Below, piece by piece: positions 8,739 through 20,031 of a stretch of DNA of 21,868 nucleotides. Origin of the DNA: a virus; the IMG/VR virus record IMGVR_UViG_3300025141_016607, positions 1-21,868 of that record; one strand, written 5' to 3'. Under the pieces are notes generated by a model, which was not told where the DNA came from, ran no database searches, and was given only the letters and a program-made list of their open reading frames with translations. Each line of letters opens with the position of its first letter. The first letter of the stretch is position 1. The translations under genes and the position numbers were made by a program.

Positions 8739-10313
8739 GTGTTATTTTTAGATCAAGATGTCCAAATAGAAAGTCAAAATACGTATCCTAATATTCTTAG
8801 TGTCGAAGCAATAAACTTTCTTGCGAATATGACTAGAAAGTTCAGCACTGAACTCGATGGACTTCTTACTCAGAGAGAGAGCCGTCAAAAGTTTTATGAT
8901 GAAGGATACTCTCCCAATTTTTCCTTAGAATGTGAAGACATCAGAGAGGGCGACTGGAAGGTGGCAGAAATACCCGATGATATTAAAGATAGAAGAGTAG
9001 AGATAACAGGTCCAGTTGATAGAAAGATGATAATAAATGCGCTTAATTCTGGTGCTAACGTATTTATGGCAGATTTTGAAGATTCACTGTCTCCCACATG
9101 GAAGAATTTGCTTGAAGGTCAGCAGAATTTAAAGGATGCTGTTAGAAAAACTATAACTTACGATCATCCCACAAAGGGGACTTACACACTTAATGAGAAG
9201 GTGGCAACATTGTTCGTAAGACCAAGAGGGCTGCATCTCAAAGAAGACCATTTTCTAGTGGACGGCAAGCCAATCCCAGCATCATTTTTTGATTTTGGAC
9301 TATTTTTCTTTCACAACGCTAAAGAACAGATTGATCTTGGAAGTGCTCCTTATTTCTATATTCCAAAGTTAGAGCATCGTCTAGAAGCGAGATTGTGGAA
9401 TGATATATTCAATTGGTCACAAGATGAGCTAGGAATTAAAAGAGGAACAATAAGGGCTACAGTCCTAATTGAAACACTCCCAGCATCGTTCCAGATGGAT
9501 GAAATTCTATGGGAGCTAAAGGATCATTCAGCGGGATTGAATTGTGGAAGATGGGATTATATTTTTAGCTACATTAAAACCTTTAGAAATCATTCGGATA
9601 AAATTTTACCAGATAGATCTTCTGTCACTATGGAGAGAAAATTTATGAAGTCCTACAGCAATCTTTTGATTAAGACATGCCACAAGAGAGGAATTCATGC
9701 TATGGGCGGAATGGCGGCTCAAATCCCAATTAAGAATAACTCTCATGAAAACGATAGAGCTCTATCTGCAGTTAGACGGGACAAGTATCGAGAAGTAATT
9801 TCGGGACACGATGGAACATGGGTTGCTCATCCAGGGCTAGTTCCGGTGGCAAGGGAAATATTTGACATTCACATGAAAGATTTAAACCAGATTAATCACT
9901 ATCTAGACTATAATGTCACACAACAAGATTTAATAAAGTGTCCTGAAGGAAAGATTACTGAAGAGGGTTTGAGAAAAAATATAAACATCGGTATACAATA
10001 CATCGAAAATTGGTTAAGGGGTAATGGATGTGTTCCGCTTTATAATCTAATGGAGGATGCTGCGACTGCAGAGATATCTAGAACACAGACATGGCAATGG
10101 ATTAAGCATAAGAAAATTAATATGACTGAGTTTAATAGAATTTTAGCTGAGGAATCTCTAAAAATAAAAAATGAAGTGGGAGATGATTTGTTCTTTAATG
10201 GAAGATTTAATAAGGCGATAGAGCTGTTTAATTTAATTTCGGTATCAAGCGAGCTTATAGACTTTTTAACATTACCGGCATATAATGTGCTGGTTGGAGA
10301 AAAAAATGATTGA
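8739..10313 (+). CDS. aceB: Malate synthase A (glyoxylate shunt)
   Basis: Condenses glyoxylate with acetyl-CoA to malate, the second step of the glyoxylate shunt. At 524 residues it is full length (the E. coli enzyme is about 533) and aligns from end to end. Visible landmarks are [20 protein letters not shown] (86-105), [13 protein letters not shown] (109-121), the catalytic-arginine block RPRGLH with Arg163, IETLPA at 244-249, the family signature [16 protein letters not shown] (263-278), [11 protein letters not shown] (356-366), and [12 protein letters not shown] with the probable catalytic Asp440. Start GTG 8739 has a weak SD (AAGAGAG). The stop lies inside the start region of aceA, so the two genes are coupled. 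Nothing suggests decay: all active-site blocks are intact. Base use matches its neighbours, which argues for long residence rather than a recent insert. Confidence 0.97.
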
Positions 10314-11631
10314 TGATAATGGATGTTGCGCTATATGTGGCAATTATGAGAAAAGATGCTCTTGCGAGTATGAGGCAAACAGATCCGAGAATAATATAAG
10401 AGATCGGTGGTCTGGAATAAGAAGAACATGGGGAAAAAAAGAAATAGATCGTCTTCGAGGAAGAGTTAATATTAAACATTCTCTTGCAACAGATGGATCA
10501 GAAAAACTATGGAGATTGCTCAATAAGGAAGAGCCGGTCGCTGCACTTGGAGCACTCACTGGAAATCAGGCCGTTCAGCAGGTCAAGGCTGGATTGAAGG
10601 GGATATATGTGAGCGGATGGCAAGTGGCAGCAGACGCAAACCTTTCAGGGAACACGTATCCCGATCAGAGCCTATATCCCGCAAATAGTGTTCCAAATCT
10701 TGTAAAAAGAATTAATCAGTCTCTTCATAGAGCAGATCAAATTGAAAGCTCTGAAGGAATACATACAAGAGACTGGATGGTCCCCATTATCGCTGACGCA
10801 GAAGCAGGATTTGGAGGACAGCTTAATGCTTACGAGCTAATGCGGTCAATGATTGAAGCTGGTGCCGCTGGAGTCCATTTTGAAGATCAGCTGTCCTCAG
10901 AGAAGAAATGCGGCCATCTTGGCGGAAAGGTTTTACTTCCTACATCTCAATTTATTAAAACTCTCAAAGCTGCGCGTCTTGCAGCAGATGTAATGGATGT
11001 TCCAACCGTCCTTATAGCCCGGACAGATGCAAATAGCGCAAAGCTGCTAATGTCAGATATAGACCCCCATGATCACGAATTTTTAACTGGTGAGAGAACA
11101 TCGGAGGGATTTTATAGAATATCTGGAGGAATTGATTGTGCCATTTCAAGAGGTCTTGCATATGCGCCCTACGCTGACTTACTATGGTGTGAAACATCGA
11201 CACCAGATTTAAATGAAGCAAAGAAATTTGCTGATGCGATTCATGAGAAATTTCCGGGTAAGCTGCTTGCGTATAATTGCTCTCCATCATTTAATTGGAG
11301 GATGCACCTGGATGAGGAGACAATTTCTATTTTTAGACAAGAGCTAAGTAAGATGGGATATAAGTTTCAATTTGTCACACTGGCAGGATTTCACTCTCTT
11401 AACCTCTCAATGTTCGAGCTATCTAGAAAGTACAAAGATCACGGGATGTCTGCATACGTCGAATTGCAAACCAATGAGTTCATGGAGGAAGGTCTCGGAT
11501 ACACAGCAACAAAGCATCAGAGAGAAGTGGGTACGGGATATTTTGATGCAGTCAAGCAGGTAATAGTGGGCAGCGAAGCATCTTCAACTCTAGCACTAAA
11601 GGGATCTACAGAGTCCAATCAGTTTGAGTAG
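10306..11631 (+). CDS. aceA: Isocitrate lyase with Cys-rich N-terminal extension
   Basis: Splits isocitrate into glyoxylate and succinate, the first step of the glyoxylate shunt. From ATG 10306 (SD GGAG at 10295-10298; the longer frame from 10285 lacks an SD) it has 441 residues. The catalytic motif KKCGHLGGK has Cys202. Other family blocks are [19 protein letters not shown] (103-121), ADAEAGFGG (163-171), HFEDQL (191-196), [27 protein letters not shown] (two adjoining blocks) and NCSPSFNW. The first 20 residues carry Cys7, Cys8, Cys11, Cys18 and Cys20 (CxxC...CxC), a possible small metal knuckle absent from the E. coli enzyme as I recall it. The N-terminus is about 15 residues longer than there. 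It overlaps aceB by eight bases. No aceK (isocitrate dehydrogenase kinase) is seen. Confidence 0.97.
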
Positions 11632-13446: not shown

Positions 13447-14448
13447 GTGAACTTACTTGAGTATGTGTGGCTAGATGGAAATAAAACGCAGGGATTGAGA
13501 AGTAAAATAAAAGTTCTCGAAAGCTGGGATGGATCTCTGGATTCAGTTCCTTCTTGGAACTTTGATGGATCTTCTACAAATCAGGCTCCAGGAGACGACT
13601 CCGAAAGAGTTCTTTTGCCCGTAAGATTGTATAGATTTAGAAATAAAACTCTCGTCCTCTGTGAGGTTTTTAATCCTGATGAAACGGCTCACGATAGCAA
13701 TACTAGATCTAGTCTTAGATCTTTTTTGAGCTCTCATCCGGCGCAGCTCTCATGGTGGGGATTTGAGCAAGAATATTTTATAGTCCAGGATTCTCAGCCA
13801 ATAGGATTCTTTAATGACCCAGGACCTCAGGGTCCATATTATTGTAGTGTTGGAGGAGATAAGGCTATAGGAAGACAGCTAGCTGAGCATCATACCCTAT
13901 CATGCCTGGCATCCGGCTTAACAATAACTGGAATGAATGCCGAAGTTGCTCCGGGACAGTGGGAATATCAGTGCTTCGCCAAAGATCCGCTTCAGGCAGC
14001 AGATGATTTAATCATATCTAGATATATTCTTTGTGCTCTCGCAGAGGAGAGAGGGCTAGATATCGATTTCTCTCCAAAACCAATAAAGGGTGACTGGAAC
14101 GGAAGCGGATGCCACACTAATTTCAGTACATTAAGGACGAGAGAAACTGGCGGAAAAGAATATTTTGAAAGGCTTCTTCTAACAATGAGACAAAGACATG
14201 ATTTTCACATAGAGGGCTACGGTGAACTTAATCACGAAAGGCTGACAGGCTTACACGAGACTCAAAAAATAGATGAATTTAGCTGGGGCGTGGCAGATAG
14301 AGGAGCATCAATTAGAATTCCTAGAGACACAGCTAAAAATGACTGGAAGGGGTATCTTGAAGATAGAAGGCCAGCTTCTAATTGCGATCCCTACACTGTG
14401 GTGAATTTGATCTCTGAAGCAATAGACATAAGTGATGAATTATCATGA
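13447..14448 (+). CDS. glnII: Glutamine synthetase type II (eukaryotic-type GSII)
   Basis: ATP-dependent joining of ammonium to glutamate to give glutamine. At 333 residues it is the compact GSII form, not the roughly 470-residue bacterial GSI (GlnA). Motifs are in order: YVWLDG and LRSK, WNFDGSST (37-44), GFEQEY (105-110), GPQGPYYC (126-133), GMNAEVAPGQWEYQ (162-175), GDWNGSGCHTN (215-225), RLTGLHET, GVADRGASIRIP (281-292) and GYLEDRRPASNCDPY (302-316). All substrate and metal blocks look intact. GSII enzymes lack the adenylylation loop of GSI, so the host GlnE/PII switch should not act on it by that route. GTG start with a strong SD (AAAGGAG 13434-13440, six bases before). Its stop overlaps the next start (ATGA). 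Confidence 0.96.
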   Translation: MNLLEYVWLDGNKTQGLRSKIKVLESWDGSLDSVPSWNFDGSSTNQAPGDDSERVLLPVRLYRFRNKTLVLCEVFNPDETAHDSNTRSSLRSFLSSHPAQLSWWGFEQEYFIVQDSQPIGFFNDPGPQGPYYCSVGGDKAIGRQLAEHHTLSCLASGLTITGMNAEVAPGQWEYQCFAKDPLQAADDLIISRYILCALAEERGLDIDFSPKPIKGDWNGSGCHTNFSTLRTRETGGKEYFERLLLTMRQRHDFHIEGYGELNHERLTGLHETQKIDEFSWGVADRGASIRIPRDTAKNDWKGYLEDRRPASNCDPYTVVNLISEAIDISDELS

Positions 14449-14788: not shown

Positions 14789-15253
14789 ATGTCGTGGATC
14801 CCACCAAAGTCTCCCTATAATTTAATTCAAGAGCATTTATGGCATGATCCATGGAAGATTTTTGTTGCTTGCATATTTTGCAATCTTACTAAGAGGGTTG
14901 ACGCCGAACCCTATATGTGGAAATTTTTTGACAAATACCCAGATCCTAAGTCCGTAGCCGACGCCAATCAGAATGATATACAGAAGATGATACAGCCTCT
15001 AGGATTATCAGAAAGGAGGTCTAGAGCTCTCATAAAAATGTCTGATGGTTACATTAAAGACGACTGGAAAGATTCACCAGAGATACTTTATGGGATCGGA
15101 AAGTATGCTTCTGATGCCTATAAGATATTTTGCCTAGGAAGGTGGAGAGATGTAGAGCCCAAGGACCATGCTCTCAACGATTATCACTCATTCTTAAAAG
15201 AAAGGTCAGAATCCAGCTCGCTTGTAATTGCAGCTGAAAAGTTGCCCTCATAA
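14789..15253 (+). CDS. MBD4-like HhH-GPD DNA glycosylase
   Basis: Predicted mismatch-specific glycosylase that removes T or U from G:T and G:U pairs. Its 154 residues follow the catalytic domain of vertebrate MBD4 from end to end: WIPPKSPYNLIQEHLWHDPW (3-22), the helical core with FCNLTKR, MWKFFDKYPDPKSVADA (43-59), QPLGLSERRSRAL, the helix-hairpin-helix LYGIGKYASDAYKIF (100-114), and PKDHALNDYHSFL with the catalytic Asp126 at the site of MBD4 Asp560. No methyl-CpG-binding domain is attached. SD GAGGT lies before ATG. The last 70 bases overlap the convergent phosphoesterase gene on the other strand. It could be a looser HhH uracil/thymine glycosylase, but the MBD4-specific wording is unusually clear. 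Confidence 0.88.
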   Translation: MSWIPPKSPYNLIQEHLWHDPWKIFVACIFCNLTKRVDAEPYMWKFFDKYPDPKSVADANQNDIQKMIQPLGLSERRSRALIKMSDGYIKDDWKDSPEILYGIGKYASDAYKIFCLGRWRDVEPKDHALNDYHSFLKERSESSSLVIAAEKLPS

Positions 15254-15900
15254 GTTCTAAGCCTTGAGACTCCGTCATCTATTACTACGTAGGTTTGATG
15301 AGTTACCCAATCTCCAGAGTTGATATACGTTTTAATATTTTGATCTGAGTCGATCCATATTAATGCTTCCGGATTGTGAGTGTGTCCCATAATGAACACG
15401 TCAATGTCATCGTTATATTTTAAAATATCGATTATACTTCTCAGCTTGTGCTTTTTGATATGCCTTTCTGTCCACCATGTTGAAAAGTCAAAATCAAATA
15501 TTTTCTCAAGAACATTCTGAATTAATGACACAAATTTAACAAAAAGCTTTCTATGAAGAAATCCCGAATCATAGGAATCTCCATGCTCGATTCTAAATTT
15601 TCTATTTCCTTCTTCAAATTCATATTTTTTAACAAATTTAACACCCAACATCTCCTTACCGACGAGATCGATCAGGCTTTCATCATGATTTCCCACTACA
15701 TAGATCACTTCTTTTTCTCTGTCTATAGCAGAAAGAATCTCAATACACCTTTCCGTGAAAACAGGAATCTTAATAAAGTCTATAATATCTCCAGCCAATA
15801 TCATTTGATCGTATTCAATTGATTTTAAGAGCTGAAGTAGCTCTGCAGACTTATAGAATCTGCTTCCAATATGGGTATCTGAAATGACTATTCTTTTCAT
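15184..15900 (-). CDS. Calcineurin-like metallophosphoesterase (LpxH-like)
   Basis: The only minus-strand gene. Its 238 residues carry the full two-metal phosphoesterase set: DTH (Asp8, His10), GDIIDF (Asp38, Asp41), GNHDE (Asn71, His72), HGD (His106) and GHTHNP (His173, His175). The order and spacing, with HGD followed by a long helical insert (about 112-160; DFDFSTWWTERHIKKHKLR), recall UDP-2,3-diacylglucosamine diphosphatases of lipid A synthesis, but the lipid-specific residues cannot be confirmed by eye. It could also be a general nucleotide or nucleic-acid phosphoesterase. No clear SD precedes its ATG. It shares a divergent promoter region (15901-15989) with the next gene and overlaps the glycosylase gene at its 3' end by 70 bases. 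Confidence 0.85.
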   Translation of the reverse strand: MKRIVISDTHIGSRFYKSAELLQLLKSIEYDQMILAGDIIDFIKIPVFTERCIEILSAIDREKEVIYVVGNHDESLIDLVGKEMLGVKFVKKYEFEEGNRKFRIEHGDSYDSGFLHRKLFVKFVSLIQNVLEKIFDFDFSTWWTERHIKKHKLRSIIDILKYNDDIDVFIMGHTHNPEALIWIDSDQNIKTYINSGDWVTHQTYVVIDDGVSRLRTYEGNFSAAITSELDSDLSFKNE

Positions 15901-16641: not shown

Positions 16642-16864
16642 TTCTGGAAAACTATCACATTCAGAATTAAAAAAAGATTTCATGTTTACATCCGTAGACC
16701 ACCTTGTTGAGATAATTGAAGGGATAGATCTAGATATTCAATCTGGTGACATATTATTTGATAGAGATGCCTCTTATCTTTGCTTTAATTCAACAAGCAA
16801 AGAAGACCTAATAAATATGATAAAAAATATTAGAATTGAGGAGAATTTTCTTGATAAGTGTTAA
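16616..16864 (+). CDS. Small unknown protein
   Basis: Not recognised. 82 residues, mixed alpha/beta by eye, with FTSVDHLVEIIEGIDLDI, GDILFDRDASYLCFNSTS and KEDLINMIKNIRIEENFL. It overlaps the preceding gene by 26 bases and the following one by 14, in different frames. SD AGGA stands about seven bases before the ATG. The tight overlap on both sides suggests that it is a real gene working with its two nucleotide-metabolism neighbours, but the evidence for function is only position. Confidence 0.6.
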   Translation: MKDSKMIINSGKLSHSELKKDFMFTSVDHLVEIIEGIDLDIQSGDILFDRDASYLCFNSTSKEDLINMIKNIRIEENFLDKC

Positions 16865-17825
16865 AGAGCTTTTTAAATCTCAAAAAGAGTTTAATGATCT
16901 GTTTTATGATCTTGAGTCGTTGAGCGATGATGAAAAAGAGGAAATAACAAAATCTCTATCTCTTGCTCTTCATTCTGAGGTCAGCTCTCTCATTTCAGCG
17001 ATTAACTTTAAAGATCACAAACATAATAGAAGGGAGATTGATAAATGCAAGATTCTGTTTGAGTCTGTGGATGCGTTTAGATATATTTTATCTATTTTGA
17101 ATATATGGGAAATTTCTAGCGATAACTTTTTAAAAGCCTTTGATGATAAAGACGTTTTTTTAAACTTGCGTCATTCTCATGGTAAGAAGAGATGGAATAA
17201 GGGACCGGTAGTTATTGTTGATATTGATGATGTCATAGCAGATTTTAGAAATAACTTTTCTTCATGGGTAGAAAATAGATACAATATAGACATAGATGTT
17301 GAATCGCCGGAGTATTATTTTATAACAGATTTAGTTAAGCATGGAATTAATCCCGAGGGTGTTTTTTTAGATTTTGTAGCAGAGGGCGGGTTTAGAAGTC
17401 TTTCTCCCGTCGAAGGGGCTGTAGAATTTTTAAAGGGGCTAAGGGAAAGAGGATGCTGGATTCAATTATTGACCGCAAGGCCCGCAGATAATATACGATG
17501 CTTTTATGACACATACGGATGGCTGTCTGATCACGATATTGTCTTCGACAAGATAGAGTTCAGTACTGAGAAATTTAGGTGGTGTGCAACTTCTGAGTAT
17601 TACGATAGCGGATCTATACTTTTTGCAATCGATGATTCACCAAAGCATGCAGAAGACTATTCACAGCACGGCATTAAATGCTGTGTTCCAATGAAAAGCT
17701 ATAATAAGCAAGTTTGGAAAAATGATAACATAATAACTTTTTCAAAATTTGAAGAAATTTTTAAAATTATTGAAAACACCCAATATAATGATCAATCTAG
17801 GAGAAAGATCAATGCCCCAGAATAA
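16851..17825 (+). CDS. Fusion: degenerate MazG/dUTPase-like domain plus HAD nucleotidase
   Basis: From TTG 16851 (SD GAGGAG 16838-16843, seven bases before) the protein has 325 codons. Residues about 5-110 match the MazG/dUTPase-like protein encoded two genes upstream: ESVDAFRYILSILNIWEISSDNFLKAF parallels its EEIVDAFNYFFSLIILTGYSADDLYDAY. Most catalytic glutamates of the first motif are lost (SEVSSLI in place of EEMFEAL), so this half may be inactive or structural. Residues about 117-310 are a HAD phosphatase of the 5'(3')-deoxyribonucleotidase kind, with DIDDV (Asp124, Asp126), LTARP (207-211) and AIDDSP (259-264). It probably dephosphorylates a (deoxy)nucleotide, perhaps with the pyrophosphohydrolase as partner. 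It overlaps both neighbours. Confidence 0.78.
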   Translation: MISVKELFKSQKEFNDLFYDLESLSDDEKEEITKSLSLALHSEVSSLISAINFKDHKHNRREIDKCKILFESVDAFRYILSILNIWEISSDNFLKAFDDKDVFLNLRHSHGKKRWNKGPVVIVDIDDVIADFRNNFSSWVENRYNIDIDVESPEYYFITDLVKHGINPEGVFLDFVAEGGFRSLSPVEGAVEFLKGLRERGCWIQLLTARPADNIRCFYDTYGWLSDHDIVFDKIEFSTEKFRWCATSEYYDSGSILFAIDDSPKHAEDYSQHGIKCCVPMKSYNKQVWKNDNIITFSKFEEIFKIIENTQYNDQSRRKINAPE

Positions 17826-18789
17826 AAATTTACAACCCATCACACTTCCAATGGATCTTAAATTTGATCAAGATCCCCAGACAGAATTTTTTAATAATCT
17901 TAAAGCTCTCAAGGTTGAGCTTGTTGATTACCCAACTCACCAACAGGCACTTAATGTAGCATGGCAGTATGTAAAGGCAACTTGGGCAGATGACCCTGGT
18001 GACACTTCACCGGATGTTTCACAAAGAGAGCTTAGCAAGAATCTTGAAGATGTACTTTGCTTTCGTGCTCTTCCCACTCCCATGGAATGCATGGGGTTTA
18101 CATTTAAATTAAGTGGCCTTTCTTTTCAAGAAGTAACACATATTATTAGACATCGTGCGGGATCTTTCGCTGCTCAATGTACTGGTGACAGAGATTTAAG
18201 AAATGATCCCGCAGTCATTCCAGAGGCAGTTCAAAATTCCCCAGAATTTCTTGAGAGGTGGAAAGATCTGGTATTGGAGTCAAAACAGCTTTATTCTGAC
18301 ATGACAGATTCAAGGGACGTGTCCATGATGGACGCCCGAATGATTCTTCCAAAATGTATGACATCATTTTACCTAATGAGAATGAACTTGAAAGATTTAT
18401 TGGGATTCATACGTCAAAGACAGGATGTTCAAATACAACCGGCAGCTGATAATATTTTAGCTGCAGCTATGGCAAGAGAGCTAATTAGAGTTCTTCCAGA
18501 GACATCAGTTGCAATAGACTTTAGTAGACCGGATATGCACTATGTCAAGACATTCCGAGTCAACATTAATGATGAGTGGACCAGCAGAGGAACAAATCTT
18601 TACTGGCCAGAGCCAAAGAATGATATTTTTGAATATCACCCCGAAGACACTATCTATCAAGGACGGAGAGAAGATATCAATGGAACAAACAATCCCGGAG
18701 GGGCCACTGTGTTTGAAAATATCTGGAATTCTTTAATGGAAGATATACGTAGAATGACAATAAGCTATAAATCTCTCTATGACATCTAA
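17812..18789 (+). CDS. thyX: Flavin-dependent thymidylate synthase-like protein (ThyX family)
   Basis: Predicted to methylate dUMP to dTMP with FAD and methylene-tetrahydrofolate. From ATG 17812 (SD AGGAG 17799-17803) it has 325 residues, well above the usual 220-250. The ThyX signature RHR-x7-S appears as RHRAGSFAAQC (113-123), with Cys123 where Ser is usual, followed by GDRDLR. ARMILP (175-180) and NLKDLLGFIRQRQDVQIQ (192-209) correspond to the family's nucleotide and folate-facing helices, but the usual AQxE wording is changed. The last 95 residues are an extra part (DEWTSRGTNLYWPEPKND...). It is either a divergent ThyX or a relative with changed substrate. It overlaps the preceding gene by 14 bases and the next one by 11. 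Confidence 0.82.
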   Translation: MPQNKNLQPITLPMDLKFDQDPQTEFFNNLKALKVELVDYPTHQQALNVAWQYVKATWADDPGDTSPDVSQRELSKNLEDVLCFRALPTPMECMGFTFKLSGLSFQEVTHIIRHRAGSFAAQCTGDRDLRNDPAVIPEAVQNSPEFLERWKDLVLESKQLYSDMTDSRDVSMMDARMILPKCMTSFYLMRMNLKDLLGFIRQRQDVQIQPAADNILAAAMARELIRVLPETSVAIDFSRPDMHYVKTFRVNINDEWTSRGTNLYWPEPKNDIFEYHPEDTIYQGRREDINGTNNPGGATVFENIWNSLMEDIRRMTISYKSLYDI

Positions 18790-19590: not shown

Positions 19591-20031
19591 ATGAAGGCAT
19601 ATATAGCGAGCTCCTGGTTTAATCCAGTGGCAAATCAAGAAGTAAATGACATTATTCACGCATTAGAGTCAAATGGATTCGAGATCTTTTCACCTCGTGA
19701 CTTTTTTGTATGTCCGCCAGATGCAGACCTGGCTACCCAAAAGTCCACGTATGAGGGAAATCTTCATCATCTTCATGAATCTGACTTGATGGTGTGTAAC
19801 ACTCACGGAAAGGACATGGGATCCATCTTTGAAGCTGGGTATTTTAAGGCTCTGGAAAAGCCAATTGTATATTTCTGTGCTGGGCTTCCCGCGGGTGCGA
19901 AATTCAACCTAATGCTAGCACAGAGTGGAGTTAAAGTATGCACTTCTAAAGAAGATCTTAGCGATTATCTCTCTAGATGTAGTGAAGCAAATATTATGCT
20001 TATAGAAAAATATCACGGTGATATTGAGTAA
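19591..20031 (+). CDS. Nucleoside 2-deoxyribosyltransferase family protein
   Basis: Predicted to move or hydrolyse deoxyribose between nucleobases (or nucleotides) in deoxynucleotide salvage. The 146 residues show the Rossmann-like family pattern: YIASSWF at the N-terminus, FSPRD (33-37), and the core DLMVCNTHGKDMGSIFEAGY with Asp75 and the probable nucleophile Glu81. KPIVYF follows. Strong SD (GGAGG) before ATG. It may belong to the DNA hydrolase/DNPH1-like branch that cleaves deoxynucleoside monophosphates; this cannot be settled by eye. It is preceded by a gap with a possible promoter. Confidence 0.85.
   Translation: MKAYIASSWFNPVANQEVNDIIHALESNGFEIFSPRDFFVCPPDADLATQKSTYEGNLHHLHESDLMVCNTHGKDMGSIFEAGYFKALEKPIVYFCAGLPAGAKFNLMLAQSGVKVCTSKEDLSDYLSRCSEANIMLIEKYHGDIE

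Follow-up and report, generated by a model that had tools for sequence, protein, structure and literature searches.

A stand-alone MBD4-type DNA glycosylase encoded by a marine phage belongs to a large, almost purely viral family whose genes co-occur with, and usually lie near, genes for thymidylate synthase (TS)-like enzymes altered for another substrate. This association is new here; the glycosylase seldom accompanies canonical ThyA and never accompanies canonical ThyX. With moderate confidence, we propose that the main viral job of the enzyme is the repair of deaminated 5-substituted cytosine, including, in the clade of the virus analyzed, a route to the modified base that would run through a divergent ThyX. 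The sequence under study (the window) is a virus record of 21,868 bases from IMG/VR with 39% G+C, and the glycosylase gene occupies positions 14789-15253 of its plus strand, beginning with an ATG that is preceded by GAGG eight bases upstream.

Membership of the 154-residue catalytic domain in the MBD4 family is near certain. A phmmer search of all PDB chains returned human MBD4 as the best match (E = 5e-45), and the top 15 matches are without exception catalytic domains of MBD4 from human or mouse (E from 5e-45 to 6e-43), aligned to residues 1-145 of the viral protein. MutY (E = 1.7e-5) and then MIG (E = 0.018) are the next families. An AlphaFold2 model built from 30 viral sequences (pLDDT 92.3) superimposes on human MBD4 with Z 24.6 and an rmsd of 1.1 Å over 143 residues at 46% identity (VIA), and Foldseek TM values against MBD4 are 0.86-0.98. 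The folds of MutY, MIG and EndoIII align with Z ~13 (13.6 and below) at 6-9 Å. The preliminary description had proposed, from the sequence, that a phage encodes the MBD4 catalytic domain as a stand-alone protein, and these sequence and fold matches bear this out.

The sole Pfam domain match is HhH-GPD, the superfamily that includes MBD4; PF03167 (UDG superfamily) was not among the Pfam matches. A profile match favoring a generic EndoIII enzyme, named earlier as an outcome that would speak against the MBD4 assignment, did not appear: the NCBIfam nth model scores 29.6 bits against a cut-off of 211.7, and mutY scores 26 bits against 287, and both identities were rejected. Furthermore, the only cysteines in the protein are Cys 28, 31 and 115, so the four-cysteine [4Fe-4S] cluster of EndoIII, MutY and MIG is impossible here. 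Sequence, fold and the lack of Fe-S cysteines thus rule out a generic EndoIII/MutY/MIG identity. No PHROGs family matches the protein, and PADLOC gives only a weak match (17.6 bits) to a MIG-like nicking endonuclease. The methyl-CpG-binding domain is absent from the 154-residue ORF, and a 96-residue ORF upstream is without any Pfam match.

Asp560 is the catalytic residue of human MBD4 (PMC5406665). Its equivalent in the window protein, Asp126 (codon at 15164-15166, plus strand, as for the codons below), is Asp in all 87 viral homologs aligned, so that the loss of this residue in relatives, which the preliminary description had raised as a possible objection, is not seen. Equally invariant is Tyr106 (15104-15106; human Tyr540), which lies in the HhH-GPD element LYGIGKY and is Tyr in 87 of 87 homologs, and Gln14 (14828-14830; human Gln449) is Gln in all 85 rows that cover the column. 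The equivalents of Asn467 and Thr469 are also invariant in every viral row covering those columns, and that of Leu508 stays Leu, Met or Phe. Because Asp560, Tyr540, Gln449, Asn467 and Thr469 are all kept, glycosylase chemistry is expected to be kept as well, and the conserved residues make it likely that the viral proteins are catalytically active.

Two other positions depart from the human enzyme. Arg468 of human MBD4 inserts into DNA and fills the void left by the flipped base (PMC5406665). The corresponding residue is Leu33 in the window protein (14885-14887) and is never Arg in the 86 viral rows that cover the column (Leu in 54, Gln in 21, Cys in 10 and Met in 1). The equivalent of Lys562 is Ala in the window protein and mostly Ala, Val or Glu in other viral homologs. 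Since neither residue is kept, the substrate or base-pair preference of the viral enzymes could differ from that of human MBD4.

Relatives of this glycosylase are widespread among viruses. A scan of IMG/VR with a single protein yielded 38 loci, and at least 577 virus-contig stretches were found to encode relatives in a profile-derived scan. A collection of 50,697 phage records yielded eight matches, from five phages (AXL1, DoCa6, YB23, Donnerlittchen and cyanophage S-TIM54); their homologs carry the annotations ENDO3c, endonuclease III or hypothetical. Prokaryote genomes (85,000) were scanned twice, both times with patterns that divergent bacterial homologs could escape. One scan gave 17 pattern matches with no relative among them, and the other recovered six relatives, all in marine metagenome-assembled genomes; at least one of these loci (L124) is flanked by genes that look phage-like by eye. 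Within the reach of these patterns, a cellular reservoir for the gene was rejected. Two haloarchaeal plasmids carry weaker matches.

In a tree of 72 proteins, which took in one human MBD4 sequence, human MBD4 has a weakly supported place (83/80) among the viral sequences, close to two large-contig loci, and Nth and MutY are extremely distant. Carriers of the divergent ThyX form one clade on the glycosylase tree, and carriers of the altered ThyA-like enzymes described below are scattered over several. Two unusual gene structures were also encountered. At L015:5998-7236 an MBD4-like reading frame continues stop-free into an Fpg/Nei-type glycosylase (MPEGPE..., Pfam H2TH 1e-18), and an internal ATG with GAGGAG upstream suggests either a restart or a two-glycosylase fusion. 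At G070:15166-15414, on a divergent-ThyX contig, a truncated MBD4-like copy contains in-frame TGA and TAG codons, representing either a decayed gene or recoding.

The glycosylase gene in the window is followed by a cluster of genes related to nucleotide metabolism. Its 3′ end is overlapped by a convergent gene (15184-15900, minus strand) for a calcineurin-like metallophosphoesterase (Pfam Metallophos, 8.8e-13), whose place is conserved in loci L001, L008, L012, L042 and L045. Then come, all on the plus strand, the C-terminal part of an all-alpha dCTPase/dUTPase-like pyrophosphohydrolase of family PF08761 (16231-16641; dUTPase_2, 4.4e-5), which by eye resembles T4 gp56; a PF08761-like domain fused to an NT5C deoxyribonucleotidase (16836-17825; dUTPase_2 3.9e-5, NT5C 4.8e-10); the divergent ThyX-like enzyme (17749-18789, with a probable start at ATG 17812; Thy1, 3.9e-19); and, as the last conserved gene of the module, a nucleoside 2-deoxyribosyltransferase-like protein (19591-20031; PF05014, 1.4e-15). 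This order recurs in most loci of the window clade: both PF08761 genes are conserved upstream of the divergent ThyX, and the deoxyribosyltransferase-like gene lies downstream of it in nearly all loci.

Other genes in the window encode metabolic enzymes. Malate synthase A (8739-10313) and isocitrate lyase (10285-11631) both score over their NCBIfam cut-offs and constitute a complete glyoxylate-bypass pair in a phage, which is also present in viral loci L004 and L040. Matches to this pair in the phage collection mostly look bacterial, and only the record ‘Phage C48C1’ (isocitrate lyase, 56%) has the look of a phage. Directly upstream of the glycosylase region, positions 13447-14448 encode a glutamine synthetase of the GlnII type, whose score of 344 bits falls short of the 500-bit cut-off, with homologs in L014, L018 and L040. 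The window starts inside a low-complexity VED/AIEDVE repeat (1-105) located at the N-terminus of an ORF, and a tRNA scan of the window found none.

Four of the isolated phages present a different arrangement. In AXL1, DoCa6, YB23 and Donnerlittchen the glycosylase gene has a short ORF on one side and a gene of nucleotide pyrophosphohydrolase type on the other, the latter followed by genes for a ‘thymidylate synthase’ and a dCMP deaminase; the operon of AXL1, in which the glycosylase is gp65, also includes DHFR. The hosts of AXL1, DoCa6 and YB23 are Stenotrophomonas and Xanthomonas. In phage DLP4 the operon is the same except that the glycosylase gene is missing, a clean single-gene difference.

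The ThyA-like enzymes of glycosylase carriers are mostly altered at a position that governs substrate choice. Residue 177 (E. coli numbering) determines the use of dCMP over dUMP, and no positions discriminate experimentally enriched modified-cytosine contigs better than 177, where Asn gives way to Asp, and 147 (PMC8670742). We found Asp at position 177, as in T4 dCMP hydroxymethylase, in 17 of 19 ThyA-like proteins examined from glycosylase carriers. Position 147 is also altered in 16 of the 17 Asp177 enzymes, with S-TIM54 keeping His, and the enzymes of AXL1, DoCa6, YB23 and Donnerlittchen all combine Asp177 with Pro147. Many phages with an Asp177 TS, including DLP4, DoCa10 and PaMx28, are without the glycosylase, which is therefore optional. 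The Asp177 TS of locus L131, which as a lone query retrieved just three loci, adjoins a 440-residue ORF (L131:1577-2899, minus strand) that looks glycosyltransferase-like by eye, has no Pfam match and could modify hydroxymethylcytosine.

In the window clade the partner is a ThyX-like protein from a divergent family (323-354 residues, Thy1 E about 1e-20) that shares the fold of ThyX (Z 17.0, with an rmsd of 2.9 over 212 residues). Its RHR motif is at residues 134-136 in the window protein, and the family signature is RHRAGSFAAQCTGDRD. Throughout the family, Ser88, Arg90 and Tyr91 of the T. maritima enzyme are replaced by Cys, Gly and Asp, giving CxGD for SxRY, so that the dUMP-type motif RHRx7S with Arg90 and Tyr91 is lacking. 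Because hhalign aligned only the C-terminal part of the divergent and canonical enzymes, this residue mapping rests on the hmmsearch and phmmer alignments. In PolB, the equivalent of Arg90 binds the pyrimidine O4 (PMC5003785). We infer that the loss of this O4 donor and the gain of an adjacent carboxylate resemble the Asn-to-Asp switch of ThyA, and on these two residue changes the divergent ThyX is a candidate dCMP-modifying enzyme. No dCMP-acting ThyX was found in the literature searched. Sixteen of 35 records with the divergent ThyX also carry a second, canonical ThyX, so that dTMP does not depend on the divergent copy in those records. Among isolates, a homolog (46%) is present in Geobacillus phage GR1, and the family also occurs at L151:8031-8999.

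To assess the association between glycosylase and altered synthases, we compared contigs of at least 40 kb. Of 35 that encode the divergent ThyX, 21 carry the glycosylase (one copy being broken), compared to none of 27 with canonical ThyX (p = 1e-7); among records with an Asp177 TS, 26 of 46 carry it, compared to five of 35 with an Asn177 TS (p = 9e-5). When already-known carrier records and duplicates were dropped, the counts became 12 of 26 versus none of 27 for ThyX (p = 4e-5) and 10 of 30 versus two of 32 for ThyA (p = 0.008), p values that, like those above, correct only partly for shared ancestry and include no correction for multiple looks. The seed of the Asp177 scan was a phage without the glycosylase, and its alignment also held carrier sequences. 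Proximity is also pronounced, in that the divergent ThyX lies within 7 kb of the glycosylase in 22 of 29 cases (4.7 expected by random placement), and for the Asp177 TS the corresponding count is 18 of 24 at a distance of up to 8.5 kb (5.6 expected). As the divergent-ThyX carriers form a single clade, their association may go back to one event that has been maintained since. Roughly a quarter of the 53 carrier records, many of which are fragments, have neither type of altered synthase, and two have a canonical Asn177 ThyA.

A case among characterized phages connects the family to modified cytosine. In Xp12, 5-methylcytosine replaces all cytosine, and the authors of the AXL1 study found a homolog of gp65 only in Xp12 among the relatives of AXL1 (PMC9206674), this paper being our source for the Xp12 homolog. 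AXL1 DNA is resistant to enzymes whose sites contain G/C, and the same authors suggested 5-methylcytosine (PMC9206674). The TS enzymes include the dCMP methylase of Xp12 (PMC5175136). Taken together, the fold, the conserved residues, the partner enzymes and the Xp12/AXL1 case make repair of deaminated 5-substituted cytosine the most economical reading.

Under the proposed mechanism, a 5-modified form, synthesized as a nucleotide, would take the place of cytosine in carriers. Deamination would then convert 5-methylcytosine to T, or 5-hydroxymethylcytosine to 5-hydroxymethyluracil, in either case opposite G. The glycosylase would flip out this thymine-like base, and Asp126 would cut the N-glycosidic bond as in a mono-functional enzyme, starting base excision repair of the phage DNA. 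UDG does not repair T:G or hmU:G, and on this reading the MBD4-type glycosylase serves to remove such lesions. In the window clade, the divergent ThyX encoded 2.5 kb downstream would make the modified nucleotide, and the dCTPase-like and 5′-nucleotidase proteins would shape the nucleotide pool. We predict on this basis that the window phage itself contains modified cytosine. The preliminary suggestion that such a phage might carry methylated cytosine is therefore favored, with a different source for the modification: a phage DNA C5-methyltransferase was rejected because it occurs in only two of 53 carrier records, and nucleotides premodified by dCMP-type TS homologs or the divergent ThyX are the more plausible origin.

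The main competing explanation is general uracil repair, in which the glycosylase substitutes for UDG by removing U opposite G, and possibly U derived from dUTP, making modified cytosine unnecessary. MBD4 enzymes act on U:G as well as T:G, UDG is encoded in only one of the 53 carrier records, and genes for PF08761 dUTPase-like and thymidylate-type proteins adjoin the glycosylase. These points keep alive the earlier idea that the protein polices uracil together with its neighbors. However, phages with canonical synthases face the same uracil problem, and in the reduced sets the glycosylase was found in none of the 27 contigs with canonical ThyX and only two of the 32 records with canonical ThyA; moreover, the synthases linked to it carry changes in residues that bind the substrate. 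We regard uracil repair as rather unlikely to be the main role, and favor the modified-cytosine role over it.

Much less probable is that the divergent ThyX produces a modified nucleotide of dUMP type, with the glycosylase and the deoxyribosyltransferase-like protein clearing 5-hydroxymethyluracil or other thymine analogues from DNA and the nucleotide pool. ThyX chemistry does pass through a 5-hydroxymethyl-dUMP intermediate (PMC3498832), MBD4 acts on hmU:G (PDB titles 4ew0, 4e9h), and NT5C and nucleoside 2-deoxyribosyltransferase-like genes are part of the module. However, hydroxymethyluracil derived from dUMP would face A, which is not an MBD4 substrate, and the Asp177, dCMP-type ThyA partners in unrelated carriers would be left unexplained. 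A role in attacking host or competing-phage DNA, instead of repairing the phage's own, seems more remote still. The gene can behave as an optional single-gene cassette, being present in AXL1, DoCa6 and YB23 and missing from DLP4 at the same spot, but MBD4-type enzymes need a mismatch with G that intact DNA does not offer, the gene lies in a replication/nucleotide operon, and the PADLOC match noted above is weak.

Repair of deaminated 5-substituted cytosine would address a general problem. In phages with fully substituted cytosine, the deamination product is not uracil and escapes UDG. Cells handle deaminated 5-methylcytosine and 5-hydroxymethylcytosine with MBD4 or TDG, and the literature searched offers no phage answer to this lesion. 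If our reading is correct, a viral MBD4 family linked with dCMP-type synthases would be that answer, and would provide both a marker gene for modified-cytosine phages in metagenomes and a pointer to possible new ThyX chemistry. More tentatively, a large group of marine phages might substitute 5-modified cytosine for cytosine and possess a complete make-and-repair module for it, composed of a new flavin-dependent, ThyX-type dCMP C5-(hydroxy)methyltransferase and the viral MBD4-type glycosylase, the latter a possible relative of the eukaryotic enzyme. The weakly supported position of human MBD4 inside the viral diversity likewise raises the question of where eukaryotic MBD4 originated.

A phage MBD4 is not described in the literature searched, which was largely open-access. 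Compared with known systems, the window protein most closely resembles the human and mouse MBD4 (MED1) catalytic domain, with which it shares the whole fold, the equivalents of Asp560, Tyr540, Gln449, Asn467/Thr469 and Leu506-Gly507, and the lack of an Fe-S cluster. The viral protein differs in having no methyl-CpG-binding domain, in its replacement of Arg468 and Lys562, and in the location of its gene within nucleotide-metabolism modules. MIG.Mth, EndoIII and MutY belong to the same HhH-GPD superfamily, and MIG performs a similar job (G:T), but these enzymes are far more distant in fold and in sequence (E 2e-5 at best) and are set apart by their four-cysteine cluster. AXL1 gp65 and its Xp12 homolog are members of the same viral family as the window protein. 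The publication on gp65 describes an ENDO3c protein, doubtful in activity and with a putative Asp141, and does not note its likeness to MBD4 (PMC9206674); in our alignment the catalytic Asp matching that of MBD4 is Asp144. Among the partner enzymes, PolB, a UMP C5-methylase of the ThyX family, is a relative with altered substrate and one of the closest folds to the divergent ThyX, but it keeps the O4-binding Arg where the divergent enzyme has Gly with Asp next to it. The T4 gp42 dCMP hydroxymethylase and the Xp12 dCMP methylase have the same Asp177-type active site as the ThyA-like partners of the carriers, whereas in the window clade a ThyX-type enzyme stands in place of such a synthase.
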